Shown: positions 1-54,716 of the stretch, piece by piece
Layout: the number at the start of each line of letters is the position of its first letter
Numbering within the stretch: the stretch's first letter is position 1
Source of the DNA: Pseudomonadota bacterium
GTDB lineage: Bacteria > Pseudomonadota > Gammaproteobacteria > Acidiferrobacterales > Acidiferrobacteraceae
Assembly: GCA_021816625.1 (NCBI GenBank)
Contig: JAKAXM010000001.1
Location: 91,092 to 155,091, forward strand
Direction: 5' to 3'
DNA: 64,000 bases
Notes under the pieces: model-generated
Database searches by the model: none
What the model was told of the DNA's origin: nothing
The model's input: the letters and a program-made list of their open reading frames with translations, nothing else
Translations under genes and position numbers: made by a program

Positions 1-1
1 C

Positions 2-36688: not shown

Positions 36689-37384
36689 CTAGCTTGCGGC
36701 CGCGAGCCTGCGCCGGACCTCGGCCAACAGGGGTTGGCGGCCTGCGTCGTCACGCACAGCGCGTTCCCAGGCCGGGAATAGCAAGGTCTCTTCACGAAAC
36801 TCGTGCTTATTGAGGGAGGCTGCGAGCAAGCTCAGCCATATATCGAGCTCATGGGCCTGATCGCCCCCCGCGCACGCCTCTGCAATGGCATCGAGCTGCA
36901 GGAGGATGTCGTCGTGCTCACGGCGCATGAGGGCCGTGGGCTCGGCGGCACAGTGGGCGGTAAGGGGAGCCAGAAGCTCGTTTTCTATCAGGATATGGAC
37001 GCGCAGCGCGTGATCGAGGCGCGTCATGGCCGCAACCGCCACACCGGGGCGTGCATCCCGTAGCGCCTCGAGCGCCGCCACCAGCGCGTAGTCCATGTCG
37101 TCGTGATCGCGGCGCATCGTGTCGGTAAGGCTCAACGCCTCCTCGGGACTACGGATGTGCAGGGTGATCAGATAACCCTGGCCGTCGGTAACCGCCGACC
37201 ACACGAGCGCATGGCGCAGATGGTTTTGCAGCTGCGCCATCAGCAGGGTCGGCTCGTCCGGACTCCAGATCCGCAGACGCGTCCCGGGACGTAGCTCGCG
37301 CAGTTGCGGGTAAAGATACATGGAGGGCGTAAGGCCCTGGGGCCGCAAACGCAGATCAAGGACATGGCAACAGGACATGGGCAC
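36689..37384 (-). CDS. DUF2249-hemerythrin fusion protein
   Basis: 231-residue protein. Residues ~5-75 form a DUF2249 domain (TusA/SirA-like fold: HVLDLRLRPQGL..., GTRLRIWSPDEP). Residues ~80-225 form a hemerythrin-like four-helix bundle with candidate di-iron ligands in RRDHDDMDYAL, DHALRVHILIENELL, RREHDDILL and LNKHEFREETLLFPAWE. DUF2249-HHE proteins are found with NO/denitrification genes; an O2- or NO-sensing/repair role is likely. Last gene of the operon hemN-cytochrome-NMO-HHE, 3 bases from the NMO gene; probably under the FNR promoter before hemN. Confidence 0.85.
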   Translation of the reverse strand: MPMSCCHVLDLRLRPQGLTPSMYLYPQLRELRPGTRLRIWSPDEPTLLMAQLQNHLRHALVWSAVTDGQGYLITLHIRSPEEALSLTDTMRRDHDDMDYALVAALEALRDARPGVAVAAMTRLDHALRVHILIENELLAPLTAHCAAEPTALMRREHDDILLQLDAIAEACAGGDQAHELDIWLSLLAASLNKHEFREETLLFPAWERAVRDDAGRQPLLAEVRRRLAAAS

Positions 37385-37387
37385 CTC

Positions 37388-38584
37388 TTAGGCAAGCAAA
37401 GACGTCGCCTCCGGCAGCGCACGCGCCGGACGGATACCCGTCAACAGGTATTCGAGCAGATCACGAACCGGGCGGATCTCGTGACCGAAAGGCAGCACCG
37501 ATCCGCCCCGGAAAAACAGCCCTTGTTCGATATTACCCTTGGCGGCGGCCGCCAGTTGCGTCTCGATACAAAACTGCCCCGCATCGGGATTGCCATCCTT
37601 GAAACCGCAATGGCTCAGACACTCGAGACGGCTCGCACAACCCCCGCAACGGCTTGTGGCGCGTGACTTAAGGAGCGTCTCGCGGGCTAGATAGCGCTTG
37701 AGCCAAGGCGTAAGCACAGCTCGCGCCGGCAGGCCTGCTGCGCTCATGAAGGTGACGATGTCCTCATCCCGGGCCTCGGCTAAGACCTTTTTGAAATTCG
37801 GATGGGCATCACACTCCTCGGTGACGGCAAAGGCCGTACCGAGTTGCACGCCCGCGGCCCCGGCATCTTGCAGATCACGGATCGCCCGAAAAGAGCCAAT
37901 ACCGCCGGCGGGAATCAGCGGGATGCGCTCGGCGGCCACACCCAGCCTTTTGAACATCGCCAAGGTCTCGCGCAAGACGCGCCTAAAATCGAAGCGAGGC
38001 GAGGCGACATCGTCGAGGCGCGAGGCGCCGAGATGGCCGCCCGCGTGCCCGGGATGCTCGATGACGATGGCATCGGGTAGGCGGCCCTTGCGCAGCCATT
38101 TGCGCAAGAGCACCTCGATACCGCGCTCGTCCGATAGGATGGGTATCAAAGCCACGTCGTAGCCTTGCGTGAGTTCAGGAAGGTCGAGCGGCAGACCGGC
38201 CCCCATGACGATGGCATTGGCCCCGCTCAGACAGGCCTGACGCACGAAGTCCGCGTAGTGATTGAGCGCCCGCATGACATTGACCGCGATAAAACCGGCC
38301 GGGCCCGACGCCGAGCGCGCAGCCTTCACTTCGCGATCGAGGGCCTCGAGATTGGCCTCGAGCATTTTATGGGTGTCGCGACAGCGCCGCAGGCGACTCA
38401 TGATGTCTGGGTGCAGGTGGCGCAGATCGACGCTGGCGATGGTCCCGACGGCCCCTTCGCGGGCGACGGCCGAGGCGAGCTTATGCGCCGAGATCGCAAC
38501 CCCCATCCCGCCTTGGAATATGGGCAAGAGCTGGCGCCCGCGAAGCGTAAGTTTGGGGAGACGGGAGGCGATGGCGGCTATCAT
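37388..38584 (-). CDS. nitronate monooxygenase-like FMN protein with C-terminal Cys cluster
   Basis: 398-residue TIM-barrel flavoprotein of the nitronate monooxygenase/FabK-like group (COG2070). FMN-binding segments: PIFQGGMGVAISAHKLA, IPLIPAGGIGSFRAI and GAAGVQLGTAF. The C terminus has several Cys (CGGCASRLECLSHC and a later FC), unusual for the enzyme family and suggestive of a metal or Fe-S site. It may detoxify nitronates, or be a different NAD(P)H flavin oxidoreductase. ATG 38584 is assumed; no good ribosome site is seen, and a GTG at 38680 would overlap the cytochrome gene. Confidence 0.8.
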   Translation of the reverse strand: MIAAIASRLPKLTLRGRQLLPIFQGGMGVAISAHKLASAVAREGAVGTIASVDLRHLHPDIMSRLRRCRDTHKMLEANLEALDREVKAARSASGPAGFIAVNVMRALNHYADFVRQACLSGANAIVMGAGLPLDLPELTQGYDVALIPILSDERGIEVLLRKWLRKGRLPDAIVIEHPGHAGGHLGASRLDDVASPRFDFRRVLRETLAMFKRLGVAAERIPLIPAGGIGSFRAIRDLQDAGAAGVQLGTAFAVTEECDAHPNFKKVLAEARDEDIVTFMSAAGLPARAVLTPWLKRYLARETLLKSRATSRCGGCASRLECLSHCGFKDGNPDAGQFCIETQLAAAAKGNIEQGLFFRGGSVLPFGHEIRPVRDLLEYLLTGIRPARALPEATSLLA

Positions 38585-38615
38585 GAGGGCATCATGGGTT
38601 CTGAAACGGAAAGGC

Positions 38616-38960
38616 TCATTGACGGGGATCAAGGCGGCGTCCGGGACGGACGCTCGCCACCATATATTTGACCGCGGCACGGACCTCCTGGTCGGTCAAG
38701 GACTCGTCGCCACCCTTTGGGGGCATGAAACTATATCCGTAATAACCATGAATGGCATGGGCCTCCAAAACGCGCAGTCCCTTGGCCAGATGGGGACGCC
38801 AGGCCTTGACATCCCCCAGGGGCGGCGCGCCGGCGACCCCGCCGGCATGACAGACGTGGCAGGTCAGGGCGAACACCTGCCGGCCGGTCAACGTCTTGGC
38901 GCTGATCGCCCATGACGCCGCCATAGCAAGCAGACCGAAGGCGAGAACCCTAGATAACAC
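38616..38960 (-). CDS. small periplasmic cytochrome c (c5-like)
   Basis: 114-residue c-type cytochrome: cleavable signal peptide (~1-21, ending ISA), haem motif CHVCH (~34-38) and distal Met in YGYSFMPPKGG, with the C-terminal helix LTDQEVRAAVKYMV. Class I/c5 type. It would shuttle electrons in the periplasm. It sits 9 bases after hemN and 31 bases before the NMO gene, so it probably shares the low-oxygen control of hemN. Confidence 0.92.
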   Translation of the reverse strand: MLSRVLAFGLLAMAASWAISAKTLTGRQVFALTCHVCHAGGVAGAPPLGDVKAWRPHLAKGLRVLEAHAIHGYYGYSFMPPKGGDESLTDQEVRAAVKYMVASVRPGRRLDPRQ

Positions 38961-38969
38961 GAAACCCCC

Positions 38970-40343
38970 TTACACAACCCGAGAAAACTGACGGCGATTG
39001 GCCATGACGAGATAACGGTCGAAGACTGCGCATACGGCCCGCACCAACATCTGGCCACGCCGAGTGACGCCTATCTTGGTGTCGCCAAGCGTGACCAGTC
39101 CGTCGCGGGCAAGGGGCTCCAGGTACCCAAGCTCTGCCGCGAAATAGGTCGCAAAGCGCAGGCCGTGACGTCTTTCGAAGGCCACGAGATCGCACTCCAT
39201 GTGACACAAGAGTTCGTTGATCACCTCGCGACGCAGGATATCGTCGCTGCTCAACTCGAAGCCGCGGCGCACCGGGAGCAGGCCCTGATCCACGGAGTTC
39301 TCGTAGTCTTCGAGCGTCCAGGCGTTCTGGCTATAGATATCGCCGATCCGGCTGACCGCCGATACGCCCACGCCCAGCACATCCAGATGGCCGCGCGTCG
39401 AATAGCCCTGGAAGTTGCGCGCCAGGGCACGTTCGCGCTGGGCCACCGCCAGCTCATCGTCAGCCTTGGCGAAATGATCAAGACCGATATAGACGTAACC
39501 CGCGTCCGTCAATACCTTTATCGCGTCGCTTAGCATCGCCATCTTGGTGGGCCCATCGGGCACTTCGGCGGTATTGATGCGACGCTGGGGCTTGAACCGC
39601 TCGGGGAGGTGGGCGTAGTGGAAGAGGGACACACGGTCCGGGCCGATCTCCATCAAGCGTTCCAAGGTACGGGCAAAGCTCGCGCGGTCCTGGCGGGGCA
39701 ATCCGTATATGAGGTCGGTATTGAGCGACCGGAAACCGAGATCGCGGGCAAACTGCGTCACGTGGTGCACCAACGCGAACGATTGACGGCGATTGATGGC
39801 CCGCTGCACGTCCGGATCGAAATCCTGAATACCCAGGCTTAGGCGATTGAATCCTAGGGCCCGTAGCAGGCGCAGGGTTGCGTCGGGGGCGTGCCGCGGA
39901 TCGATCTCGATCGAATATTCGCCGTCGTCGTCGCCGCGCATAGCGAAGCGCTCGACGATGGCGCCCATGAGCGCCTGGATCTCGTCATGATTTAGGAAGG
40001 TCGGCGTGCCTCCGCCCCAATGGAGTTGCTCCAAAGTAGGCCGAGACCCCAGCGCAGGCGCTAGCAAGGCCAATTCCTGTGCGACTCGTGCGACGTAAGG
40101 AGCGGCCCACTCATGGTGCTTGGTAATGGTTTTGGTGCAGGCGCAGTAGTAGCAGACCGACTCGCAGAAGGGCACATGCACATACAGCGACCAAGGGCGC
40201 GTGGGGTCGCGTGCCTCCAGGACCCGGGTCAGGTCGCGCGCCCGGAACTGCCCATGAAACTGCGTGGCGGGCGGGTAGGAGGTATAACGCGGGGCCGACA
40301 CGCCGTAGCGGGCCACCAAGGTTTCGTCACAATAACCGTTCAT
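38970..40343 (-). CDS. hemN: oxygen-independent coproporphyrinogen III dehydrogenase
   Basis: 457-residue radical SAM enzyme of haem synthesis that works without O2. It shows VPFCESVCYYCACTKT (the HemN CxxxCxxC signature with the extra Cys), GGGTPTFL and LSLGIQDFDP, and full length (E. coli 457). First gene of a four-gene operon. AAGGG precedes its ATG, and an FNR box lies at -41.5 from a TAGGGT -10-like hexamer, so FNR activation at low oxygen is expected. Confidence 0.97.
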   Translation of the reverse strand: MNGYCDETLVARYGVSAPRYTSYPPATQFHGQFRARDLTRVLEARDPTRPWSLYVHVPFCESVCYYCACTKTITKHHEWAAPYVARVAQELALLAPALGSRPTLEQLHWGGGTPTFLNHDEIQALMGAIVERFAMRGDDDGEYSIEIDPRHAPDATLRLLRALGFNRLSLGIQDFDPDVQRAINRRQSFALVHHVTQFARDLGFRSLNTDLIYGLPRQDRASFARTLERLMEIGPDRVSLFHYAHLPERFKPQRRINTAEVPDGPTKMAMLSDAIKVLTDAGYVYIGLDHFAKADDELAVAQRERALARNFQGYSTRGHLDVLGVGVSAVSRIGDIYSQNAWTLEDYENSVDQGLLPVRRGFELSSDDILRREVINELLCHMECDLVAFERRHGLRFATYFAAELGYLEPLARDGLVTLGDTKIGVTRRGQMLVRAVCAVFDRYLVMANRRQFSRVV

Positions 40344-40363
40344 AAGAAAACCCTTAAAATTAG

Positions 40364-40405
40364 ACCCTAGCCGCGCGGGGCCACGCCCGCTTTGACATAA
40401 ATCAA
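40364..40405 (-). promoter_or_regulatory. FNR-dependent promoter of hemN
   Basis: FNR box TTGAC-ATAA-ATCAA at 40392-40405 (9 of 10 consensus bases). On the minus strand a -10-like TAGGGT occupies 40369-40364, exactly where a class II FNR promoter (box at -41.5) needs it; start near 40357, 14 bases before the hemN ATG. The box overlaps the ubiD stop codon. Confidence 0.8.
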
Positions 40406-41877
40406 GATGGCGGGAGGCCGAGGTCCGCGCAGATGCGGGCGACGGCCGCCTGCGCCTCGCGGGACGGCTGGATCGTGCGCCCGGGCGGGCGCGTCACTTC
40501 CGGGGGATGCTTCAAGGTCGCGTCCAGGCCCATCTTCCCGCCTAGCCCCGCCTCTGGACTCGCAAAATCCAGGTAATCTATGGGCGTGCCGGTCAGGATC
40601 AGGGAGTCCCGGGCGGGGTCAGCGCGGGTGACCAGCGCCCACATAACCGCCGACCAATCCCTGATATCGATGTCGTCATCCGTAACGATGATGAATTTGG
40701 TGTAGGTGAACTGGCGGAGATAGGACCATATGCCGAGCATCACCCGCCGCGCATGGCCAGGATAGCGTTTACGGATACTGACCACCGCGATGCGGTACGA
40801 ACAGGCCTCCGGCGGCAGATAAAAATCGACGATTTCGGGAAACTGCTGCCTGAGCAAAGGAATAAAGACCTCGTTTAGGGCCCCCGCGAGGACCGATGGT
40901 TCGTCGTAAGGCGAGCGACCCATATAGGTAGTATGGTACAAAGGCGCGTGGCGATGCGTTATCCGCGTCACGGTCATGACCGGAAACCGGTCTTGGGCGT
41001 TGTAATAGCCGGTGTGATCCCCAAAGGGGCCTTCGACTGCCGTGTCGTCCGGGAAAATCACACCTTCCAGGACGATCTCCGCGCGCGCCGGCACCAGCAG
41101 GCCGTTGGCCGCCTGCGCAAGCTCCGTCCGAGTCCCACGCAAGAGCCCCGCGAACTGATACTCCGACAAGGTGTCGGGGATGGGGGCGACAGCGGCGAGT
41201 GTCAAGGCCGGATCGGCGCCTATCGCGACCGCCACCGGGAACGGTTTCGTAGGATGGGCCTCGCGGAACCGGGCATAATCCATGGCCCCGCCCCGGTGCG
41301 CGAGCCAGCGCATGATAAGGCGATTGCGGCCGATCAGTTGCTGGCGGTAGATGGCAACGTTGTGCCGGGCGCCTTCCACGGGCCGCGTAATGACAAGGCC
41401 GAAGGTCAGCAGCGGCCCGGCGTCTTCCGGCCAGCACAACCCTATCGGCAAGCGCTCGAGGTCGACTGCCGCCCCTTCCAGGACACACTCCTGAACCGGT
41501 ACTGGGCCCGTATGCAGCCACGTGCGGGCGGCGAGCAGGCGGCTTAGGACGGGAAACTCAGCAACCGCCTCACGCGGCCCTTTCGGCCAGCGCGGCTCCT
41601 TGATGCGCACGAGGAGCTCGCCCAGGGCACGCAAGCCCGCGATATTTGGGAGATCCAGGGCCGTAAGGATCCGCTCTTCGGTCCCAAACAGATTGCCGAC
41701 CACCGGCATCTTGTCCCCATCCACGGACTCAAAAAGCAGGGCCGGGCCCTGGACGTGGATGGCACGGCGACAGATCTCGGTGATCTGCAGACGCGCGCTC
41801 ACCGGTGCTGTCACCCGCTTTAGGAGGTGGTCGCGCTCGAGTCGGGCCAGGAATTGGCGCATGTCGGAAAATGTCAC
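40402..41877 (-). CDS. ubiD: 4-hydroxy-3-polyprenylbenzoate decarboxylase
   Basis: 491-residue prenyl-FMN-dependent decarboxylase of ubiquinone synthesis (E. coli 497). Matches include DMRQFLARLERDHLLKRVTA at the start, ITEICRRAIHVQGPALLFE, GPFGDHTGYYNAQDRFPV (catalytic Glu/Arg region) and VTDDDIDIRDWSAVMWAL. The start is either GTG 41877 or ATG 41862; ATG 41925 is too far upstream. The enzyme serves both aerobic and O2-independent routes, and its gene lies between the hemN and ubiT FNR boxes. The ubiX partner is not in the window. Confidence 0.93.
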   Translation of the reverse strand: MTFSDMRQFLARLERDHLLKRVTAPVSARLQITEICRRAIHVQGPALLFESVDGDKMPVVGNLFGTEERILTALDLPNIAGLRALGELLVRIKEPRWPKGPREAVAEFPVLSRLLAARTWLHTGPVPVQECVLEGAAVDLERLPIGLCWPEDAGPLLTFGLVITRPVEGARHNVAIYRQQLIGRNRLIMRWLAHRGGAMDYARFREAHPTKPFPVAVAIGADPALTLAAVAPIPDTLSEYQFAGLLRGTRTELAQAANGLLVPARAEIVLEGVIFPDDTAVEGPFGDHTGYYNAQDRFPVMTVTRITHRHAPLYHTTYMGRSPYDEPSVLAGALNEVFIPLLRQQFPEIVDFYLPPEACSYRIAVVSIRKRYPGHARRVMLGIWSYLRQFTYTKFIIVTDDDIDIRDWSAVMWALVTRADPARDSLILTGTPIDYLDFASPEAGLGGKMGLDATLKHPPEVTRPPGRTIQPSREAQAAVARICADLGLPPS

Positions 41878-41931
41878 GGGCGCAGCATAGGGGGACCGTC
41901 GCGGCCGCCCCTTGATCAAAGGCAAACTTGT

Positions 41932-41972
41932 TTGACGCGCATCAAGGGCGGGGCGGGCGAAACGATGATAAT
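41932..41972 (+). promoter_or_regulatory. FNR-dependent promoter of ubiT
   Basis: FNR box TTGAC-GCGC-ATCAA at 41932-41945. On the plus strand GATAAT (41967-41972; 5 of 6 to TATAAT) is at the class II distance. The predicted start is 41979-41980, on the ubiT ATG itself, so the mRNA would be leaderless. On the minus strand no -10 is seen at the matching distance for ubiD. Confidence 0.75.
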
Positions 41973-41978
41973 GACCGT

Positions 41979-42413
41979 ATGAATGCGCTTTCCGAGCAAC
42001 TCCCGCAGGCCGCCCTACGCGCGCTCGGCGTCAGCGCCCGCGTGCTGCCGGCGCCGGCCATGGCCCTGGGCGCGGCGATCGCGGCCAATCTGCTGCTGGC
42101 CCCCGGACGCGGGCTTCGGGACTTGAGCGGAAAACGTCTCCGCCTCGAACTCACCTCGCCGCCATTGACGCTCGGTTTCGTGATCCATCGTGGCCGCATG
42201 TGGCCGGCGCCGCCCAGCCCCTGGCATGCATGCATTCGGGGTACCGGAGAATCCTTTCTAGCGCTGCTCCTGCAAAAAGAGGACGCCGACGCACTGTTCT
42301 TTGATCGCCGGCTGTGCGTGGAAGGCGATACCGAGCTGGCCCTGCAGGTTCGGCATGCCGTCGACGCCGCCTTTTTCCATTACAAAAAGCGCCTGGGCTC
42401 GCTGTTCCCCTAG
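41979..42413 (+). CDS. ubiT: UbiT, lipid-binding factor of O2-independent ubiquinone synthesis
   Basis: 144-residue SCP2-domain protein. It resembles E. coli UbiT (YhbT): near the end DALFFDRRLCVEGDTELALQVRHAVDA parallels the conserved DTLFFQRRLVIEGDTELG of UbiT (compare short parts: FFDRRL, EGDTEL). UbiT binds isoprenoid lipids and is required with UbiU and UbiV for anaerobic ubiquinone. ATG 41979 has no Shine-Dalgarno, which fits a leaderless transcript. ubiU and ubiV are at 44.9-46.8 kb. Confidence 0.88.
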   Translation: MNALSEQLPQAALRALGVSARVLPAPAMALGAAIAANLLLAPGRGLRDLSGKRLRLELTSPPLTLGFVIHRGRMWPAPPSPWHACIRGTGESFLALLLQKEDADALFFDRRLCVEGDTELALQVRHAVDAAFFHYKKRLGSLFP

Positions 42414-42550
42414 ACCCATGCGCGGCCCCCCGCCGACGGCTGTCGCTTCGGCGTTGCAATCACCGCCTCATGCGATATGCTTAAATCCCAAGACAGGGCT
42501 GCGTTCGGCGGATCTTTACGGGATCCGATCATAGATCAAGAGGGGGGTAC

Positions 42551-43210
42551 ATGCAGCGAACGGCAATAACGTCGACGCGGCCGGAACGCGCGACGGACGG
42601 GCCGGGGGGCTGGCGGGCATTTTTGGCGCGGCTACTTGCGCGGCTGCTGCCCACGGACCTGCGACTCTTCGCACGCGCGATCTGCTCAGGACCGCAAGCG
42701 GTCGGGGCCGCCTGCCCCAGTTCGAAGCGTCTCGCGGATTACATGGCCGCTCAGGCCGTGGCAGCCGGGGACGGCCACATCGTAGAACTCGGCGCGGGCA
42801 CCGGTGTAGTCACCGCTTCTTTGCTCGCGCATGGGGTGCCGCCCAAACGCTTGGTCGTTGTCGAGAAATCGGCCCTGCTGGCGGCCCATCTGCGGCGCCG
42901 CTTTCCGGACGTGACGGTCCTTGAGGGAGACGCCGCCGATCTCGCCACCCTGCTTACGTGGCGCGCGCAGCACGTCTCGACGGTGGTCTCGAGTCTGCCC
43001 TTGAAATCGCTCCCCAAAGACACCGTCGACCAAATCGGCCGCGCCTTGGATGCCGTTTTGCCTCGCGGCGCTACTTTCATTCAATTTACCTATAGCCTGC
43101 GCTGCCGGGCAATCGATTGGGCCCAGGACGTGACGTGCCTGCGCTCGCATACGGTGTGGCGCAACCTGCCACCGGCCCGCGTGAACATCTTCGCCTGGGG
43201 TGTAAGCTAA
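42551..43210 (+). CDS. class I SAM methyltransferase (PmtA-like)
   Basis: 219-residue methyltransferase. GAACPSSKRLADYMA is typical of phospholipid N-methyltransferases (PmtA), followed by motif I VELGAGTGVVT, motif II VVEKSALLAAHL and VVSSLPLKSLP. It may methylate phosphatidylethanolamine. AGAGGGGGG precedes the ATG. No FNR-like site is obvious; it is flanked by ubiT and the 3' end of the ubiUV operon but has its own frame and orientation. Confidence 0.82.
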   Translation: MQRTAITSTRPERATDGPGGWRAFLARLLARLLPTDLRLFARAICSGPQAVGAACPSSKRLADYMAAQAVAAGDGHIVELGAGTGVVTASLLAHGVPPKRLVVVEKSALLAAHLRRRFPDVTVLEGDAADLATLLTWRAQHVSTVVSSLPLKSLPKDTVDQIGRALDAVLPRGATFIQFTYSLRCRAIDWAQDVTCLRSHTVWRNLPPARVNIFAWGVS

Positions 43211-43366
43211 GAGGCCGCGCGGTGCCTGGGGCCTTGCACCGCAGTGAACTCGCGGTATTCCCGACCCGCTCAAGCGTGTGAGCCTTTTGGCCGAATGATG
43301 CGGTTTAATACAGGGGCTTTACGAGGCCGCTCCCGGCCCGGTGCTTTTGGAAACCTTCTCGCCGAC

Positions 43367-46817: not shown

Positions 46818-47743
46818 GCCGGCACCCCGCACACCTTGGCCCCTTGACGGGTGCCCCGCCGCGCGAGCTCTGCGGTAATGGCATTGAGGACCCGCCACTT
46901 CCCGGAACACCACTCAGGGGCCAACAACAGGGCGGCCTTGGCCGTCCCGGTGAGTCTGTGGAAGACGACCTGACGCGGCGTGCGTTCGATCAAATCAGCC
47001 ACGGTCGCCACATAGGACCCGAAACTAAGAGGCTGGTAGCGTCCCGCCCGCAAATCGCGTGCCATCTGCGTGCCGCGCACGACATGGAGCGGATGTATTT
47101 TGAGACCGGCGACCCCTAGCGCGAGGACGCGGCTTAAGCTCTCGAGGGCGTGATCCCGGTCTTCGCCGGGCAGGCCCACGATGAGATGGGTGCATATGGG
47201 CAGACCGTAGCCCTGCAAAAGTGCCACGGCCTCGCAGTATTCGGCAAAGCCATGGCCGCGATTTACGCGCATGAGCGTGGCATCGAAACTCGATTGCAGG
47301 CCCAGCTCCACCCACACTGCAAACCCCTGGTCCCGATAGGAGGCCAGCAGGGCCGCCACTGGGGGCGATATACAGTCGGGCCGGGTTCCGACACTTAGAC
47401 CGACGACCCCGGGCACGGCCAGCGCCTGCGCATAAGAGGCCGCGAGATGCGCGATGGGCGCGTAGGTGTTCGTGTAGGTCTGGAAATAGGCAATGGCCTT
47501 GCGAGCGCGCGTACGGCGCGCGACACAGTGAAGGCCAGCGCGCACCTGCGCACCGATCGGGAGGGCGACGACGCGCGGATGGAAGGAGCGGTTATTGCAG
47601 AAACTGCACCCGCCCCATCCCCGCGAACCATCACGATTGGGGCAAGTAAAGGCTGCGTCTATGGCCACCTTGTGCACCCGCTCGCCAAAGCGGCGCAGTA
47701 ATTGCTGACCAAAGGTCTCAACGAACTCGGAAAGAACGGCCAT
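46814..47743 (-). CDS. yhcC: radical SAM protein YhcC-like (TIGR01212)
   Basis: 309-residue radical SAM enzyme of the YhcC family: AFTCPNRDGSRGWGGCSFCN is its signature Cys cluster (long spacing), followed by AYFQTYTNTYAP and VGLSVGTRPDCI. Function is not settled; it is annotated as a tRNA- or Elp3-like modifying enzyme. Second gene of the minus-strand operon starting at 48.4 kb, overlapping the first gene by 26 bases and ubiU by 4. Confidence 0.88.
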   Translation of the reverse strand: MAVLSEFVETFGQQLLRRFGERVHKVAIDAAFTCPNRDGSRGWGGCSFCNNRSFHPRVVALPIGAQVRAGLHCVARRTRARKAIAYFQTYTNTYAPIAHLAASYAQALAVPGVVGLSVGTRPDCISPPVAALLASYRDQGFAVWVELGLQSSFDATLMRVNRGHGFAEYCEAVALLQGYGLPICTHLIVGLPGEDRDHALESLSRVLALGVAGLKIHPLHVVRGTQMARDLRAGRYQPLSFGSYVATVADLIERTPRQVVFHRLTGTAKAALLLAPEWCSGKWRVLNAITAELARRGTRQGAKVCGVPA

Positions 47744-48395
47744 CGGTCGACTCCAAGGGGCGGGCCCGGAACTCTACGTTGAGCCGCGCGGCGATATCCG
47801 CACACGCCGCAATATCAACCCCGGCAAGCCCCGCGACGGCGCTCAAGGTGACCTTCGGCACAAAGTCGCGGCATGCCGCCGCGAACGCCAGCATGGCGGG
47901 GTAGCTGTCTGGGCGGCGGGGCCGGCACCATCGTTCATAGCTCGCCTCATCGGCGGCATTGAGCGATATGGAGACGCGATCGATCAGGCCGTCGAGCTCC
48001 GCGGCCACGTTCCGGCCGTGAACGAGACTCCCTAGGCCATCGGTATTAAGGCGTATCGGAATGCCCGTCGCGCGCAAGACCGATGCCGCAGCAAGCACCG
48101 TGGCAATACGCAGGGTAGGCTCGCCCAGACCGCAGAAGACATATTCGACACAGGGTCCCTGGGCCCGCGCCGCGGCTATGATCTCGGCCACCGAGGGCTC
48201 GCGGCTTATGGGCATGCGTAAGGCCCTGTCCGCCACTGTCCAAAGACCCTGAAATTTGGGACAAAACCGGCACCGCAAGGTGCAGCGGCTCGTCACATTG
48301 AGATAGACACGGTCGCCGATCCTGTAGGCGATGGCCGGCGGCGGGCGACTATCCCGCGCGGGTGAGCGCACTTGCCCTGTCCGCACCATGCCCAT
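47718..48395 (-). CDS. TatD-linked radical SAM protein (TIGR04038-like)
   Basis: 225-residue radical SAM protein with CTLRCRFCPK (CxxxCxxC), VFCGLGEPTLR and RLNTDGLG. This short type is found linked to TatD nuclease genes in other bacteria; no tatD is here. It is the promoter-proximal gene of a five-gene minus-strand operon (this gene, yhcC, ubiU, ubiV, lplA-DUF116). Its start is ~28 bases from the predicted FNR-dependent start site. Confidence 0.8.
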   Translation of the reverse strand: MGMVRTGQVRSPARDSRPPPAIAYRIGDRVYLNVTSRCTLRCRFCPKFQGLWTVADRALRMPISREPSVAEIIAAARAQGPCVEYVFCGLGEPTLRIATVLAAASVLRATGIPIRLNTDGLGSLVHGRNVAAELDGLIDRVSISLNAADEASYERWCRPRRPDSYPAMLAFAAACRDFVPKVTLSAVAGLAGVDIAACADIAARLNVEFRARPLESTDGRSFRVR

Positions 48396-48429
48396 CGGCA
48401 GGCGTCCTTGAAGGTCTTGGAGGTCTGCG

Positions 48430-48499
48430 AGTCTAGCCGGAGCGCAGGCCTTGGCATTTGACGCATATCAAAGGGCGTATCCACAAGCAGTTGTAGTTT
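48430..48499. promoter_or_regulatory. divergent FNR-dependent promoters sharing one FNR box
   Basis: FNR box TTGAC-GCAT-ATCAA at 48458-48471. Rightward, TAGTTT (48494-48499) sits at the -10 place when the box is at -41.5, start ~48506, 27 bases before nrdD. Leftward, TAGACT (48435-48430) sits at the same mirrored distance, start ~48423, 28 bases before the radical SAM-ubiUV operon. The geometry is symmetric to the base. Confidence 0.82.
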
Positions 48500-48532
48500 G
48501 AGTCTCCATAAACACCAATCGCCGGGGGAATC

Positions 48533-50572
48533 ATGGCACAGGCGCCAGTACGATCGGTATGCAAACGGGATGGTCGCATCGTGCCGTTCGATCCCGCCAA
48601 GATCCGCTACGCCCTGCTGCGGGCGGGCTTGGCCACGGGGGAATACGGGGCCGATGAGGTGGAGCGGTTGACGGCGCAGGTGAGCGCACAATGTCCGGCG
48701 GGACACCCCGATGTCGAGACCATTCAGGATCTCGTCGAAGACGCCTTGATCGTCTGCGGATATCGGCGCACCGCGCGCACCTACATCAGTTATCGAGAAA
48801 AGCGACGCCTGACGCGCGAAGAAGGGCGCGTGCAGGTCGGCGTCGAGGACACCGTCACGGAATATCTCGACCGGCGCGACTGGCGGGTGCAGGCCAACGC
48901 CAACCAGGGTTACTCATTGGGCGGGCTGATACTGAACATATCGGGCAAGGTGGTGGCCAATTATTGGCTGAACCACGTCTACCCCCAGGAGGTGGGACGC
49001 GCCCATCGCGAGGCGGCGCTCCATATTCACGACCTAGACATGTTGTCTGGGTACTGCGCGGGATGGTCATTGCGCACCTTGCTTGCCGAAGGTCTCAATG
49101 GCGTGGGGGGCAAGGTGGAGGCGACGGCGCCGAAGCATCTGTCGAGCGCGGTAGGCCAGATGGTCAATTTTCTCGGTACGCTGCAAAACGAATGGGCGGG
49201 CGCACAGGCCTTTAGCTCCTTCGACACCTACCTAGCTCCATTCATACGCAAAGACGGGCTGCCCTATGACGAAGTGAAGCAAGCCATACAGGAACTCATA
49301 TTCAACCTGAACGTGCCGTCGCGCTGGGGCACGCAGACACCCTTTACCAATCTGACATTCGACTGGGTATGTCCCGCCGACCTCCGCGACCAGGCACCGG
49401 TAATAGCCGGCGCGGAAATGCCCTTCACTTACGGTGATCTGGGGCCCGAGATGGATATGATCAACCGGGCCTACATAGAAGTTATGACCGAAGGCGACGC
49501 AAAGGGCCGCGTCTTTACCTTCCCCATACCGACCTACAACATAACACCGGATTTCGACTGGGAAAGCGCCAATGCGGATCTCTTATTTGGAATGACCGCG
49601 AAGTACGGCCTGCCGTACTTCCAGAATTTCTTAAATTCGGACCTTAAACCGCACATGGTCCGCTCCATGTGCTGTCGCTTGCAGCTCGACTTGCGCGAGC
49701 TCCTAAAACGCGGTAACGGCCTATTCGGTTCCGCCGAACAGACGGGCTCCCTCGGGGTCGTCACGATCAATTGCGCGCGCCTTGGCTATCTGCACCGCAA
49801 TGATGAACGCGGACTTCTGGATGGCCTTGATCACTTGCTAGAGCTCGCCCGCACAAGCCTTGAGATCAAGCGCAAAACCATACAGATGTACATGGATAAC
49901 GGCCTGTTCCCCTACACAAAGCGTTATCTCGGTACGCTCCGTAACCACTTCTCCACGATAGGGGTAAATGGCATAAATGAGATGATCCGCAACTTTACCG
50001 CGGGGCGGCAGGACATCACCCATCCCGAGGGACACGCCTTCGCCTGCCGTCTGCTAGACCATGTCCGCGAGCGGATCCGCACCTTCCAGGAACAGACCGG
50101 ACATATGTACAACCTCGAGGCCACGCCAGCGGAGGGTACGACCTACCGCTTTGCCAAGGAAGATCGCCAACGCTACCCCGGCATACTCCAGGCCGGGACT
50201 GCCGCCCGTCCCTACTACACGAATTCCTCCCAGCTACCGGTGGGGTTTACCGATGACCCCTTCGAGGCCCTGGAGCGCCAGGAGGACTTGCAGCGCCGCT
50301 ACACAGGGGGCACCGTGCTGCATCTTTATATGAGCGAACGACTGTCGGGGCCTGCGGTCGCGCGCGAACTCATAAGACGCGCGCTCACGCGCTTTCGTTT
50401 GCCCTATATAACCATTACGCCGACCTTTTCCATATGCCCACGCCACGGTTACCTTGCGGGCGAACACGAGTTTTGTCCCAAATGCGACGACGAGGCCTGG
50501 GCACGTCGCGCCGCGCAGGCCGCGCCTACCGCCCCATCAGGAGAGAGCCATGACCATCGAAAGAGCCAATAA
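48533..50572 (+). CDS. nrdD: anaerobic ribonucleoside-triphosphate reductase NrdD (core without glycyl radical domain)
   Basis: 679-residue class III ribonucleotide reductase. N-terminal ATP-cone (~8-95; KRDGRIVPFDPAKI), barrel with the catalytic Cys pair in RSMCCRLQLD and the finger loop GSLGVVTINCARLGY, then the zinc ribbon near the end (CPRHGYLAGEHEFCPKCDD). The usual C-terminal RVxGY glycyl radical segment is absent; it is encoded by the next, separate frame at 50550. It should work only without O2. The ATG follows GGGGGAA. Confidence 0.93.
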   Translation: MAQAPVRSVCKRDGRIVPFDPAKIRYALLRAGLATGEYGADEVERLTAQVSAQCPAGHPDVETIQDLVEDALIVCGYRRTARTYISYREKRRLTREEGRVQVGVEDTVTEYLDRRDWRVQANANQGYSLGGLILNISGKVVANYWLNHVYPQEVGRAHREAALHIHDLDMLSGYCAGWSLRTLLAEGLNGVGGKVEATAPKHLSSAVGQMVNFLGTLQNEWAGAQAFSSFDTYLAPFIRKDGLPYDEVKQAIQELIFNLNVPSRWGTQTPFTNLTFDWVCPADLRDQAPVIAGAEMPFTYGDLGPEMDMINRAYIEVMTEGDAKGRVFTFPIPTYNITPDFDWESANADLLFGMTAKYGLPYFQNFLNSDLKPHMVRSMCCRLQLDLRELLKRGNGLFGSAEQTGSLGVVTINCARLGYLHRNDERGLLDGLDHLLELARTSLEIKRKTIQMYMDNGLFPYTKRYLGTLRNHFSTIGVNGINEMIRNFTAGRQDITHPEGHAFACRLLDHVRERIRTFQEQTGHMYNLEATPAEGTTYRFAKEDRQRYPGILQAGTAARPYYTNSSQLPVGFTDDPFEALERQEDLQRRYTGGTVLHLYMSERLSGPAVARELIRRALTRFRLPYITITPTFSICPRHGYLAGEHEFCPKCDDEAWARRAAQAAPTAPSGESHDHRKSQ

Positions 50573-50732
50573 GATCGACCCGCGCGGCGAATTGCGCGCC
50601 GAAGAACGCCAGACCTGCGAGGTCTGGACGCGGGTCATGGGCTATCACCGGCCGGTCGCGTCCTTCAACGACGGCAAAAAGGGTGAGCACGCCGAGCGCT
50701 TGTTTTTCGAGGAGCGCAGGTTGCGCGCGTGA
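50550..50732 (+). CDS. stand-alone glycyl radical domain of NrdD
   Basis: 60-residue protein. EERQTCEVWTRVMGYHRPVA and FNDGKKGEHAERLFF match the C terminus of class III reductases, where the Gly of RVxGY carries the stable radical (Gly681 in E. coli NrdD, segment RVCGY); here that is Gly31. The ATG is preceded by AGGAG at 6 bases, overlaps the nrdD 3' end by 23 bases in another frame, and is followed by nrdG with a GTGA overlap. This is a real separate gene rather than a broken tail. Similar small genes may exist in relatives, which I cannot check. Confidence 0.85.
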   Translation: MTIERANKIDPRGELRAEERQTCEVWTRVMGYHRPVASFNDGKKGEHAERLFFEERRLRA

Positions 50733-51418
50733 CGCTGCGGCTGGGCGGCTTCGTGCCCTGGAGCGGTATCGACTATCCGGGGCGCCAGGCCGCGGTCGCC
50801 TTCGTGAGCGGCTGTCCCTGGCGGTGTCCGTACTGTCACAATAGCCATCTCTGGGCGCCGCAGGCGACGATTTCCTGGGGACGGGTCCGGTCATTCCTCG
50901 AGACGCGACAGGGCCTACTGGATGCGCTCGTCATAAGCGGTGGCGAACCGCTCGCCCAGGCAGCAGGGGTCGCGGCGGCGCTCGTCGAGGCACGCGATCT
51001 CGGCTTTGCCGCGGGCCTACACACCGCCGGCGTATCGCCACGGCGGCTTGCTGGCCTATTGCCGGTGCTCGACTGGGTCGGACTCGATATCAAGACCGCG
51101 TTCGGACACTATCCGGCGATTACGGGGCGAGCGGGTACGGGGACCGCCGCCCGGGCGGCGGCCCGTTTGGTCATCGAATCGGGCACGCCCTACGAGCTCC
51201 GTACGACCGTGCACCCCGAGCTCATATCCGAGCACGAACTCGTGACCATGGTGGCGGAGCTCGCGACCCTGGGCGCCACCGCGCTGACCCTGAAAGGCTT
51301 TCGTCCCACCGGCTGTCCCAGCGCCCGCCTCAACACCCACTATCGCCCCTGGCTCACATCGACCCTCGCGCAGACCTTGCGCGAGATCATGCCGGCTATC
51401 GTGTTGCCGGACCCCTGA
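50729..51418 (+). CDS. nrdG: NrdD-activating radical SAM enzyme
   Basis: 229-residue radical SAM activase (TIGR02495 type). It has GIDYPGRQAAVAFVSGCPWRC, the CPWRCPYCHN cluster motif and ISGGEPL. It installs the glycyl radical on the NrdD system; here its target residue is in the separate 60-residue protein encoded just upstream. The GTG start overlaps that gene's TGA (GTGA). It converges on the 51428-51913 gene with 9 bases between. Confidence 0.93.
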   Translation: MTLRLGGFVPWSGIDYPGRQAAVAFVSGCPWRCPYCHNSHLWAPQATISWGRVRSFLETRQGLLDALVISGGEPLAQAAGVAAALVEARDLGFAAGLHTAGVSPRRLAGLLPVLDWVGLDIKTAFGHYPAITGRAGTGTAARAAARLVIESGTPYELRTTVHPELISEHELVTMVAELATLGATALTLKGFRPTGCPSARLNTHYRPWLTSTLAQTLREIMPAIVLPDP

Positions 51419-51427
51419 GGGCGCCGT

Positions 51428-51913
51428 CTACGCCGCACCCTCGGCACCCAGCACGGCGGCGGCGATAACGACGACGGCTAGTATCAGCAAGATGACGTGG
51501 GCACGCCCTAGGCGGGTCAAGACACGGGGCTCGTCGCGCTGAGCCTGGGCCGCAAGGCGCCGGTGCAAGACCAGAGGCTCCAGCACAAAGAGTAGCAGCA
51601 CAAAAAATGACCAGAAGGCGATCATGCCGTCGAGCCACAGGCCCGCCGTCCGGTCGAGCAGCGGCTGCAGGTGTAGACGCGCGATCAGCGCGCCGCCACT
51701 CGCCCCTGTCAGAATCACCAAGATTTGCGCCGCGCGGGCAAAACGACGTTCGAGCTCCTGGAAGGCCGGGAAACGCCGTCCCGGCGGGAGCCGGGTCAAG
51801 GCCGGCAGCACGATGACCGTTACAAACCCCATGCCCCCTATCCAAAAAACGACCGACAGGATGTGTAGGGCGAGGAGTGCGGCCAGGACAGGCCAATGAC
51901 CGGAGGCAATCAT
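51428..51913 (-). CDS. CopD/DUF2269-like membrane protein
   Basis: 161-residue protein with about four membrane helices. HILSVVFWIGGMGFV in helix 1 (His in a membrane helix, then WIGGM) is characteristic of the CopD/DUF2269 type, possibly haem- or copper-binding. The ATG overlaps the upstream nnrS stop as ATGA, so the two are co-translated. Function is not established; context suggests NO/copper respiration. Confidence 0.75.
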   Translation of the reverse strand: MIASGHWPVLAALLALHILSVVFWIGGMGFVTVIVLPALTRLPPGRRFPAFQELERRFARAAQILVILTGASGGALIARLHLQPLLDRTAGLWLDGMIAFWSFFVLLLFVLEPLVLHRRLAAQAQRDEPRVLTRLGRAHVILLILAVVVIAAAVLGAEGAA

Positions 51914-53109
51914 GGCGTTGGTGCCGACGTCGCAAGGATGCGCAGATAGGTGAGGATCCACGGTAGCAGGGCCGCGAGCGCCAGGGGTGCGGCGAAGACA
52001 CTCAGGTCGTAGGGCGCAAGGCCGTTCAGCGCCGGGATGTCGGCCGCTACCCGCAAAAGCGCCGCCCCCTGAACACCGGCCAGCGCCACCCAACTGGAGC
52101 GGTCGCTTGCGAGCGGGCGGCCGGAATGGCCGCGGCTCACACGTGTCACCATGGCCACCACGAGACTCAAGGCAAAGCCTAAACCCAGGGCATGCAAGGG
52201 GCCACGTCCCAGGCTGAGGCCGCCTCGAAGGAGCTGCACGTCACGGATGGCGTAGAGAAAAAAGCCGAGGCCGAGCCACGCAAAACCGAGATACAAAAGC
52301 AGGAGCAGGCCATGGCGGCGGACCCGCGGCTCGAACCAGAGCCACGCATGGTAGTAGGCCACGACCGCAATGCCCCCATCCAAGACCGCAAGCGGCGCGT
52401 ATAAGGCTTGGGCGGCGAGCAGGGCGTGGCCGGCCGTGGCCGCCAAAAAGCCGAGCGGGATCCAAGGCCTCGCGGCCGGACGCAGGTAACCGGGGAGAAC
52501 CGCGGCCGTGAAAAACGGCAACATACGGTAGCTCACACCAAAAAGGGTCGGCACGAGGAACGCATAGAGGCCGAGCCGTATCGCCCAGGCCAGCGCCGTC
52601 GCCGAGCCCCAGGCAAAGGCTGCCGCGTACAGCAAAAGTCCTCCCACTTCGAGGGCGAGCGTGATGTTGAAGAGACGCACGGGCGGCCGCACGGCGGCGT
52701 GCCCGCGCCGGTAGACGGAGAACAAGGCCATCAGGAGCCGTGCATCCCCCATAGCCATGATCAAGATCCCGCTGATTAAGATCGCCGCACCCAGGGCCAG
52801 ACCCGCGTACACAAGACCGAGGCCCGCAAGCCGCAACAGGAAGGCACCGCGATACTCTGACGGCATCAGCGCCTGAACCTGCAGCCAGCGCGGATAGGTA
52901 GTGGCAAGAAAGCCGAACACAAAAAACGGAAAGAGGCCGTAGATCATCAAAAAACCGTGCACGGCCACCGCCGGCACCGGCAGGCGGGGTATCGGGTAGG
53001 CCCCCGCGAAAGCCCCCAGGAGCCACAGCATCCACAAGATCAGGGCGAACGCGGCCTGCACGAGACCCGCCACAAAATAGGGCCTATGCGGCGCATCAAA
53101 AAACGACAT
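51910..53109 (-). CDS. nnrS: NnrS family haem-copper membrane protein
   Basis: 399-residue, 12-helix NnrS protein. Family features: DAPHRPYFVAGLVQAAFALI at the start, AVHGFLMIYGLFPFFVFGFL, and VTRVSRGHSGRPL late in the protein, with several His in helices. NnrS lowers nitrosative stress, and its gene is often FNR/NNR controlled. ATG 53109 is the one just before the HRPYF motif; a longer frame to 53187 is unlikely. Downstream partner overlaps by 4 bases. Confidence 0.9.
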   Translation of the reverse strand: MSFFDAPHRPYFVAGLVQAAFALILWMLWLLGAFAGAYPIPRLPVPAVAVHGFLMIYGLFPFFVFGFLATTYPRWLQVQALMPSEYRGAFLLRLAGLGLVYAGLALGAAILISGILIMAMGDARLLMALFSVYRRGHAAVRPPVRLFNITLALEVGGLLLYAAAFAWGSATALAWAIRLGLYAFLVPTLFGVSYRMLPFFTAAVLPGYLRPAARPWIPLGFLAATAGHALLAAQALYAPLAVLDGGIAVVAYYHAWLWFEPRVRRHGLLLLLYLGFAWLGLGFFLYAIRDVQLLRGGLSLGRGPLHALGLGFALSLVVAMVTRVSRGHSGRPLASDRSSWVALAGVQGAALLRVAADIPALNGLAPYDLSVFAAPLALAALLPWILTYLRILATSAPTP

Positions 53110-53279
53110 CGAACCCCCTTCTACGCAAGGGCCGGGTTCGTGCCCTGACCGAGGACACCGCACCGGCTGCCTGGTCTGCGCGGCCATGGGCGCCGGGCGC
53201 GCCCTTGCTTATAGTACTGTAGAATCGCGAATGCGTGCCGTGGGCGGCGCCCTGCCGTCTCGGGAGTCGCCCATCTTGC

Positions 53280-53750
53280 CTAATTGGCGATCGCCGCCGA
53301 CTCGGTCATGGCGGCCAACAGATCCTCAGCACAATCGGCAAACAACTGGTCGCTCATCGGATAGAGGACTTGTTCCTCCTTGGCGTTGTGCTGAGACATG
53401 ATGGCCTCGAGCTGCGCAAGCCGCGCGCGGCAGGGCGCCCCGTCGCTGAGAAGGCTTGCTTGCGGCACCAGGAGCTCCCGGATGACGGCATGCTCGCGCC
53501 GCATGACGGCGATCGGTCCCGACGGGCCGCCGCGCTGCTCGAACGCGGGAAACAAGACCTTTTCTTCCAGAGCTATATGGTGCTCGAGCGCGCGACGCAG
53601 GTGGTTAAAGAGATCAGCCGCCGCGGGGGTCCCGCAAGAGGCGGCCATAAGGGTAAGGAGATCATCGACCTCGCGATGCTGGGCGACGAGAAAACTGGAC
53701 AATACCTGGCTCGACACGGACCGGCCCTCCTTGTGGGCGAGAGCGCTCAT
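53280..53750 (-). CDS. hemerythrin-like protein
   Basis: 156-residue four-helix HHE protein with candidate di-iron ligands in VAQHREVDDLL, LEHHIALEEKVLFP, MRREHAVIREL and SQHNAKEEQVLYP. No signal peptide. It may bind O2 or NO or act in iron-sulfur repair. It lies between nnrS (170 bases downstream) and fnr (divergent), and the FNR box at 53878-53891 could act on it, but the leader would be long (~90 bases) and the -10 is weak. Confidence 0.88.
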   Translation of the reverse strand: MSALAHKEGRSVSSQVLSSFLVAQHREVDDLLTLMAASCGTPAAADLFNHLRRALEHHIALEEKVLFPAFEQRGGPSGPIAVMRREHAVIRELLVPQASLLSDGAPCRARLAQLEAIMSQHNAKEEQVLYPMSDQLFADCAEDLLAAMTESAAIAN

Positions 53751-53877
53751 TGTGCGTCCCGCGCGCGGGAAAATGATTGTTGTAGGTCAAGGAGGGGCGG
53801 CACAGGCCGGCTTCAGCCGGCCTTGCGGTTTCGTCGGGAGGCTGCCGAGAGTAGACTAGCGCGGGCCGGCAGGCGCC

Positions 53878-53905
53878 TTGATACCTATCAAAAGTAGCAT
53901 ATGCT
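53878..53905 (+). promoter_or_regulatory. fnr promoter overlapped by a perfect FNR box
   Basis: Perfect FNR consensus TTGAT-ACCT-ATCAA at 53878-53891. TTGATA (53878-53883, 5 of 6) and TATGCT (53900-53905, 4 of 6) with a 16-base spacer form a sigma70 promoter whose -35 is the left half of the box. That predicts repression by FNR of its own gene rather than class II activation. Confidence 0.7.
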
Positions 53906-53981
53906 TATGCCTGACCGGCGGCAGGCGGGGCGCAGCACGTCTGATCGCAGAGATGCCGGCCCACCGGGGATGAGGGGAGTT

Positions 53982-54716
53982 ATGGGAGTTGCCAGTTTCG
54001 AAACCAACCTCAAAAACCGCTGCTCGAGTTGCAGCCTGCGGGAGATTTGCCTCCCTCTGGGTCTCGACGCCGAGGAACTCGACAAGCTCGATCGGCTCGT
54101 AAAACGTCGCCGGCGCGTGTTCGCGGGGCAGCACCTGTTTCGCGCCGGCGACAGCTTTCAGGCACTGGCCGCCGTGCGGTCGGGGTTTTTCAAGATCTAT
54201 GAGGTCAGCGCCGGCGGGCTCGAGCAGATCACGGCCTTCCCGATGGCGGGCGAACTCATGGGTCTGGACGGCATAAGTTCGGGGGCCCACATCGGAAATG
54301 CCATCGCCCTTGAAGATAGCGAGGTCTGCGAGATTCCGTTTCCGCGGCTCGAAGGTCTGCTGTCGGATTTGCCGCGGCTACAACACCAGTTCCATAGGCT
54401 CTTGAGTAGCGCCATTGCCTCGGACCATAACCTCATGATGGTCCTTGGGACCATGACCGCCGAACTCAAAGTGGCAGCCTTCCTTCTGAACCTTTCCGAC
54501 CGCCTCCACGCCCGGGCCGAACCGGCCCTGGTCATACACCTGCCGATGTCACGCGAGGATATCGGGAACCACTTGGGCCTCAAGCTTGAAACGGTAAGCC
54601 GAATGTTCTCGAAGTTGCGCGACGACGGCCTCATCAGGACCGAGGGCCGCAAGACCGAAATCTGCAATTACGAGGCCCTCAAAGGCTTGTGCGTGCGAGG
54701 CTCCCTGCGCGCCTAG
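53982..54716 (+). CDS. fnr: oxygen-sensing transcriptional regulator FNR
   Basis: 244-residue CRP/FNR regulator, the length of E. coli FNR. N-terminal cluster ligands RCSSCSLREIC (CX2CX5C) plus the fourth Cys in SEVCEIPF, a cyclic-nucleotide-like roll (DSFQALAAVRSG) and a C-terminal HTH whose recognition helix LETVSRMF keeps the E..SR contacts for TTGAT half-sites. ATG 53982 is chosen (GAGG upstream; E. coli-like length); 53901 or 53970 would add 27 or 4 residues. It should control the four FNR boxes in the window. Confidence 0.95.
   Translation: MGVASFETNLKNRCSSCSLREICLPLGLDAEELDKLDRLVKRRRRVFAGQHLFRAGDSFQALAAVRSGFFKIYEVSAGGLEQITAFPMAGELMGLDGISSGAHIGNAIALEDSEVCEIPFPRLEGLLSDLPRLQHQFHRLLSSAIASDHNLMMVLGTMTAELKVAAFLLNLSDRLHARAEPALVIHLPMSREDIGNHLGLKLETVSRMFSKLRDDGLIRTEGRKTEICNYEALKGLCVRGSLRA

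Follow-up and report, generated by a model that had tools for sequence, protein, structure and literature searches.

Positions 36689-54716 of the stretch analysed here (the window: 64,000 nt of assembly GCA_021816625.1, contig JAKAXM010000001.1, positions 91,092-155,091 forward) very probably represent a conserved low-oxygen island, in which the regulator FNR, itself encoded there, likely switches on the operons through five conserved boxes. The anaerobic ribonucleotide reductase of the island is divided between two genes, the smaller of which specifies a 60-residue protein with the predicted glycyl-radical loop. The host is an Acidiferrobacter-like bacterium with a genome of 2,194,724 bases in 52 contigs, 99.14% complete. 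An earlier, sequence-only reading of the window had proposed an FNR-regulated low-oxygen island including fnr, and this is still the best reading, to which box clustering, footprints at five promoters and class II-like promoter spacing all point. Two features which that reading did not notice, the split NrdD and a gene named here lplX, weigh more than the regulon itself.

FNR boxes and promoter geometry

The four FNR boxes proposed earlier (40392, 41932, 48458 and 53878) were all found, the last as an exact match to TTGATNNNNATCAA and the other three with one mismatch each, TTGAC. A search of the window for TTGATNNNNATCAA with at most one mismatch gave six sites against 0.61 expected, a number reached by none of the 100 dinucleotide shuffles used as the null. 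The frequency of one chance site per megabase, from which the boxes had been judged far beyond chance, fits the exact motif only, whereas allowing one mismatch gives about 0.6 per 64 kb by chance; the conclusion itself stands. Two of the six sites were absent from that reading, namely 35216, which sits within a major facilitator superfamily gene, and 38619, which is regarded as a real fifth box despite its location in the end of a cytochrome open reading frame (ORF), since it is conserved in 13 of 13 congeneric genomes.

The whole genome was then scanned with the strict pattern TTGAYNNNNATCAA, the 18 rows obtained being reduced to 14 distinct sites (palindromes appear on both strands), and the reversed pattern, used as a control, gave none. 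Five of the 14 lie inside 15.3 kb of the island. When 14 sites were placed at random 200,000 times, uniformly on one line and with contig ends ignored, such a cluster of five appeared at a frequency of 3e-5, and four boxes in 13.5 kb, the span first described, at 9e-4. Similarly, five of 18 sites lie inside 23.2 kb in the one-contig genome G005 (chance frequency 8.5e-5). The boxes are concentrated in the island; an equal density over the whole genome, which the sequence-only reading had named as grounds for refuting it, is not seen. Elsewhere in the genome, one box (at 1202 of locus L001, G000:C5) was located about 72 bp ahead of a hemerythrin gene.

The boxes of the island are:

38619-38632, minus strand: fifth FNR box TTGATCCCCGTCAA, about 38 bp before the NMO-like gene, absent from the sequence-only reading
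40392-40405, no strand: hemN FNR box TTGACATAAATCAA, upstream of hemN
41912-41925, minus strand: second, degenerate FNR-like box TTGCCTTTGATCAA, 29.5 from TATGCT (41889-41884) for ubiD
41932-41945, no strand: ubiT/ubiD FNR box TTGACGCGCATCAA at the ubiT/ubiD divide, with a -10-like GATAAT at 41967-41972 for ubiT
48458-48471, no strand: FNR box TTGACGCATATCAA between nrdD (plus) and the radical S-adenosylmethionine (SAM)-mnmL-ubiUV-lplX operon (minus), with -10-like hexamers TAGACT at 48435-48430 (minus) and TGTAGT at 48492-48497 (plus)
53878-53891, no strand: fnr FNR box TTGATACCTATCAA, overlapping the -35 of a TTGATA-N16-TATGCT promoter (53878-53883, 53900-53905)

Conservation was followed in stretches from 13 congeneric genomes and two of the sister genus, plus named loci, with the host's own genome counted in. 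Distances to genes were counted from the predicted start codon and spacings to -10-like hexamers from the box centre. A perfect TTGAYNNNNRTCAA was present before the NMO-like gene (13 of 13 congeneric genomes, 37.5-38.5 bp from the start), before hemN (13 of 13, 54.5-55.5 bp), at the ubiT/ubiD divide (13 of 13, 37.5-42.5 and 73.5-77.5 bp from the two starts) and before nrdD (14 of 14, 66.5-68.5 bp), and a perfect box preceded fnr in the nine of nine genomes whose stretch includes this gene. In all this the box arms were invariant, while the spacer bases varied.

In class II FNR-activated promoters the box centre lies at about -41.5 relative to the start site and some 29.5 from the -10. On the side of the radical SAM operon, TAxACT or TAGAGT was found at 29.5 in 14 of 14 congeneric genomes, a class II-like spacing, and for ubiT all 13 genomes read show xxCAAT or GATAAT at 28.5-29.5. 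For ubiD, a degenerate box of the TTGCGTTGGATCAA type (TTGCN5RTCAA) lies 19-21 bp from the first box in 13 of 13 genomes, and a hexamer matching at least four of the six TATAAT letters stands exactly 29.5 from it in all 13. In the case of fnr, a TTGATA-N16-TATxCT promoter has its TTGATA within the box, the TATxCT hexamer being co-located in all nine rows compared; since it is the -35 hexamer that is covered, FNR would be expected to repress its own promoter, which suggests autorepression.

The boxes also extend beyond the genus. Among 19 UbiU-positive relatives without lplX (18 of the same order, one of the same class), 13 stretches carry a box before ubiT and/or ubiD, as do eight of the nine containing the radical SAM gene before that gene. 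In these relatives ubiU and ubiV are adjacent in 19 of 19, with ubiT in 17 stretches, ubiD in 15 and hemN together with fnr in six; the core genes and boxes being kept, the core looks old and lplX optional.

Several observations weigh against so regular a picture. The spacing at nrdD is loose, with the best hexamer at 27.5 in 10 of 14 genomes, and the hexamers of hemN match only three to four of six letters within 28.5-30.5. Before the NMO-like gene, 11 of 13 genomes show TAAGCT at 28.5, but the window has CATGAT beside the start codon instead. Moreover, several of the other nine boxes of the host genome fall in coding sequence, so that some boxes must be due to chance; no box was found in L161, one of the 19 lplX-free stretches, and the strict pattern matched nothing in the Ectothiorhodospira loci.

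The predicted split class III ribonucleotide reductase

The sequence-only reading had named nrdDG. Both genes are present, but a separate glycyl-radical ORF lies between them:

48533-50572, plus strand: nrdD large part, with ATP-cone PF03477 and NRDD barrel PF13597 (profile 2-530 of 562), no glycyl loop
50550-50732, plus strand: stand-alone glycyl-radical ORF of 60 aa, WTRVMGYHRPVASFN (PF13597 profile 530-561, 31.3 bits, cut-off 26.2)
50729-51418, plus strand: nrdG2, NrdD activase (TIGR02495, 166.1 bits, cut-off 131.15), with a GTG start overlapping the end of the glycyl-radical ORF

In the large ORF the NRDD profile stops at position 530 of 562, to be picked up at 530-561 in the small one, the split falling after a zinc-site-like motif (CPRH...CPKC) which includes C635, C648 and C651. 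The 60-aa ORF begins with an ATG preceded by a GGAG-type sequence and overlaps the end of nrdD by 23 bases. As judged from its predicted products, an NrdD devoid of its own glycyl-radical loop, with the loop on a separate ORF, is a split class III variant.

This arrangement was found well beyond the window. A separate tail of 57-70 aa, starting from ATG, was present at 43 of the 44 readable NrdD places of the loci set, or on 35 of 36 distinct contigs (eight of the 44 places repeat a contig, and two more loci cut inside nrdD were left out); in the sole miss, L127, the stretch ends before any tail could appear. The gaps at the split range from -23 to 87 bases, and three frame relations occur, in 20, 14 and 9 of the 43 places. 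It has to be set against the split that the script favoured ATG starts with a Shine-Dalgarno-like sequence, so that such sequences are not independent evidence for it; the frame relations and the gaps are.

In the class sample the tail search matched 26 of 274 genomes, and 20 stretches from 19 of these were compared, 19 of them with NrdD: 16 were split and three fused, a proportion to be read with the fact that picking by tail match favours tails like that of the window over distant fused NrdDs. One of the fused proteins, L171, matches both parts, the large ORF at 67% identity and the tail at 58%, and so fixes the identity of the tail as the NrdD C-terminus. A cysteine stands eight residues before the glycine in all 47 distinct split tails fitting the search motif, and a threonine in the three fused proteins. 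Other placements of these genes were also seen. In L024, L025 and L030, nrdD and its tail adjoin the DUF2249/hemerythrin gene, with the FNR box kept 68 bp upstream, and in L024 nrdD with its tail lies about 12 kb from nrdG. L187 (G341:C3:17000-21500) has an orphan glycyl-radical ORF without adjoining nrdD or nrdG, the same genome having a normal operon, L188; this orphan could be a spare part.

A database search with the tail matched 4132 proteins at E 0.01, a length-limited set some of whose members may be fragments of fused NrdDs, and the best 120 of these are of 57-82 aa and include proteins of Cupriavidus metallidurans, Thauera sinica and Pandoraea. In plasmid pHG1 of Cupriavidus necator H16, coding sequences of 2031, 201 and 720 bases follow the same three-gene order, the small one encoding a protein of 66 aa (WP_011154154). 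RefSeq labels both of the C. necator H16 reductase coding sequences as anaerobic reductase, so curators had in effect already seen the small one, and a 1999 study reportedly treated nrdDG of this strain. Nevertheless, no description of a split class III enzyme was found in the openly licensed PMC literature, which was covered in excerpts, as are all sources cited here by PMC number; this holds for the excerpted texts of PMC4390871, PMC11226230, PMC11528403, PMC2795772, PMC5645315, PMC9669993, PMC4520616 and PMC3019208. A paper of 2015, as excerpted, calls the split class II enzyme the only non-viral split ribonucleotide reductase (PMC4520616).

We give an even chance to the wider proposal that many Pseudomonadota, C. 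necator H16 included, use a two-piece class III reductase with an NrdG-charged radical plug of about 60 residues, replaceable after oxygen damage and here under putative FNR control beside oxygen-independent haem and ubiquinone synthesis. In this scheme the 60-aa peptide would receive its radical from NrdG and fit into the NrdD barrel; a peptide cleaved by oxygen could be cheaply replaced. If this is true, the printed claim for split class II as the sole non-viral case (PMC4520616, in the part consulted) would be overturned, a 60-residue carrier of a glycyl radical would be available for preparation and exchange, and oxygen damage would cost the cell only the small piece, which would thus act as an exchangeable radical plug.

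The lplX gene and the remaining gene content

The last gene of the ubiUV operon encodes a fusion of a lipoate ligase (LplA) fold with DUF116:

43367-44935, minus strand: lplX (our name), LplA fold and DUF116 fusion, 522 aa, with a GTG start overlapping the ubiV stop

The fold is complete, with catalytic and accessory domains and motifs of the RRxxGG and GRKIAS types, and the nearest PDB entries are 5ij6 and 3r07. K135, within GRKIAS, is at least 90% conserved in 30 sequences, and we take it to be the catalytic lysine of lipoate ligases. The DUF116 part (PF01976) scores 30.2 bits (cut-off 25), and the fusion has eight invariant cysteines. Its occurrence follows that of UbiU: all 10 credible carriers in the 274-genome sample have ubiU (73 of 274 overall), eight of them adjacent, and among relatives lplX is found in 27 of 46 UbiU-positive and in none of 14 UbiU-negative genomes. 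A second lplX paralogue (50-51%), with no ubi genes near, was seen in L026, L027 and L028, the same bins holding the island copy (L017, L015, L021).

lplX is a concrete candidate accessory of oxygen-independent ubiquinone synthesis, and our guess, made with low confidence, is that of an ATP-using Fe-S enzyme. Some facts speak against such a role. The 19 lplX-free relatives are UbiU-positive, UbiU was not found in four of the 20 carrier genomes tested, and E. coli, whose anaerobic ubiquinone synthesis uses UbiUVT, is not known to have lplX. Furthermore, no residue of UbiU, UbiV or UbiT separates carriers from non-carriers, and therefore no lipoyl acceptor was found. No paper on lplX was found in the openly licensed PMC literature; DUF116, lipoate and radical SAM were not found in the excerpted text of the ubiTUV survey PMC11707229, and in that of PMC6747719, where DUF116 was not searched, lipoate appears only via a reference on lipoate synthase.

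The other genes of the island are:

36689-37384, minus strand: DUF2249-like and hemerythrin protein (PF01814 above cut-off, PF10006 below)
37388-38587, minus strand: NMO/FabK-like flavoprotein (PF03060, E 1.8e-30; best solved chains named 2-nitropropane dioxygenase)
38616-38960, minus strand: small c-type cytochrome (CHVCH; PF13442, 48 bits, cut-off 27), between hemN and the NMO-like gene
38970-40343, minus strand: hemN (TIGR00538, 549.6 bits, cut-off 324.95)
40402-41862, minus strand: ubiD (TIGR00148, 470.8 bits, cut-off 244.85)
41979-42413, plus strand: ubiT (NF047962, 76 bits, cut-off 46.9), ATG at 41979, frame open from 41928
42551-43210, plus strand: PmtA-like SAM methyltransferase (NF045881, 106.3 bits, below cut-off 250; PF13649 above cut-off)
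44932-45816, minus strand: ubiV (NF047965, 345.1 bits, cut-off 275)
45813-46817, minus strand: ubiU (NF047963, 510.3 bits, cut-off 440), ORF reaching 46913
46814-47743, minus strand: MnmL/YtqA-type radical SAM protein (TIGR01212, 332.9 bits, cut-off 180)
47718-48395, minus strand: small radical SAM protein of a TatD-linked family, first in the ubiUV operon (TIGR04038, 207.7 bits, cut-off 129.7)
51910-53187, minus strand: NnrS-like membrane protein (PF05940, E 8.4e-54)
53280-53750, minus strand: hemerythrin protein (PF01814, 79.3 bits, cut-off 25.3), between nnrS and fnr and divergent from fnr
53901-54716, plus strand: fnr, Crp/Fnr family, long frame from 53901, in-frame ATGs near 53970-53985 being likelier starts

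Profile searches bore out the earlier calls of hemN, ubiD, ubiT, ubiU, ubiV, nrdD, nrdG and fnr; that gene list was sound in what it named but left out the hemerythrin (53280-53750) and the cytochrome (38616-38960). A beta-propeller protein follows past the island. The ubiD copy of the island is the single match to its family in the whole genome, and two radical SAM genes lead the ubiUV operon; of 49 testable loci, 35 have MnmL immediately ahead of ubiU. Acidithiobacillus-type loci (L058, L066, L072, L073, L075) have homologues of the NMO-like protein (58-59%) close to ubiTUV-lplX-nrdGD.

The regulator is filed as a Crp/Fnr family member, Fnr-like by its sequence: it matches NCBIfam PRK11161 at 219.7 bits, under the subfamily cut-off of 228, and Pfam cNMP_binding and HTH_Crp_2. 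It has a C-x2-C-x5-C at 41-50 (C41, C44, C50), C143 and a helix with ETVSR; the four cysteines are presumably the cluster ligands and E-xx-SR the recognition helix, residue roles that we take from E. coli. The cysteines of UbiU (C172-x6-C179-x16-C196-x38-C235) and of UbiV (C39 and C173-x12-C186-x3-C190) keep the spacing of the E. coli proteins, where 4Fe-4S roles are given to CxnCx12Cx3C of UbiV and to four cysteines of UbiU (PMC6747719, excerpted text).

When oxygen is absent, FNR would bind these boxes and give class II-type activation of hemN, ubiT, the NMO-like gene, ubiD (through the second, weaker box), the radical SAM-mnmL-ubiUV-lplX operon and nrdD-glycyl-peptide-nrdG, while at fnr the box over the -35 would let FNR limit its own synthesis. 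The products of the island would replace steps that use or are compatible with oxygen, and the counterparts are found elsewhere in the genome: HemF, two Ubi hydroxylases over cut-off and one PF02867 (NrdA/NrdJ-type) reductase. Both genes of the oxygen-dependent Ubi hydroxylases (window 1-61; contig C26:88802-91152) share the contig of the island, about 37 kb ahead of it.

Alternative explanations and known systems

It is quite possible, if somewhat short of probable, that the clustering reflects co-transfer and history only, the boxes being no more than part of a scattered FNR regulon. Boxes do occur elsewhere in the genome, including the one 72 bp ahead of a hemerythrin gene, and comparable clusters exist in other lineages; this explanation is, however, compatible with an FNR-switched island, as it concerns why the genes sit together. 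A different reader of the boxes, namely another Crp/Fnr protein of the NO-responsive Dnr/NnrR type, is unlikely. The NnrS, DUF2249/hemerythrin and hemerythrin genes would fit a response to nitric oxide (NO), and in P. aeruginosa Dnr acts at nrdDG through a box of the same type (PMC5645315, excerpted text), but fnr, with intact Cys ligands, lies within the island and itself carries a conserved box.

Regarding the reductase, it is very improbable that the split arose from errors in databases or assembly, or that programmed frameshifting yields one fused chain. The 23-base overlap of the two frames in the window and the fused homologues in three of 19 stretches would agree with this; on the other hand, the split is found not only in metagenome-assembled genomes but also in records of isolates and in complete ones, with three frame relations, gaps of up to 87 bases and in-frame stops of all three kinds. 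As for lplX, a place in general lipoylation or in sulfur oxidation (with sHdr lipoate-binding proteins), the gene having reached ubiUV by operon drift, is possible, though less likely than not: the complete LplA fold, the names of several carriers as sulfur oxidisers and the four of 20 carrier genomes without detected UbiU favour it, whereas 26 of the 27 carriers among relatives have another LplA-type match besides lplX, and lplX follows UbiU in both samples (27 of 46 versus 0 of 14, and 10 of 10 credible carriers).

FNR control of ubiTUV is already established, and the regulon of the island is a good but expected example. According to the excerpted sources, it was demonstrated by mutation in E. 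coli (PMC10470549), and FNR boxes precede ubiT/ubiU in 1362 of 1566 ubiTUV triplets of Pseudomonadota (PMC11707229). The earlier remark on how rarely such genes lie so near one another holds only in part, since six of the 19 relatives have hemN and fnr by ubiUV and comparable clusters have been published. In Sphingopyxis granuli, ubiTUV, fixK and nrdZ have neighbouring tags (SGRAN_3858-3862) with FNR boxes at -40.5, -60.5 and -41.5, hemN2 being also an Fnr target at another locus (PMC7713065); unlike the island, that cluster, as far as the excerpt describes it, holds no lplX, split NrdD, ubiD or hemN. In Hyphomicrobium denitrificans, ubiXDTUV (Hden_0564-0568) form one cluster, with hemN at Hden_0576 (PMC12423496, excerpted text). 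The layout also differs from that of E. coli, where ubiU and ubiT share an intergenic region, whereas in the island the partner of ubiT is ubiD, and that of the radical SAM-headed ubiUV operon is nrdD.

GrcA/YfiD is a small, stand-alone spare glycyl-radical protein for pyruvate formate-lyase, but it supplements an intact enzyme, whereas the NrdD large part of the island has no glycyl loop of its own. The class III NrdDG of P. copri (PMC11226230, as excerpted) has the ATP-cone, barrel, zinc-site motif, glycyl loop and NrdG found here, but its NrdD is fused, while the loop of the island is on a separate ORF, the cut falling beyond the last CxxC of that zinc-site motif. The split class II NrdJa/NrdJb is likewise encoded in two adjacent genes, although NrdJb, in the excerpted account, carries out thiol-disulfide exchange and holds no radical (PMC4520616), whereas the small ORF of the island is the predicted radical piece. 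Finally, the LplA ligases (PDB 5ij6, 3r07) share domains and motifs with lplX, which differs in its DUF116 fusion, its eight invariant cysteines and its linkage to ubiUV.

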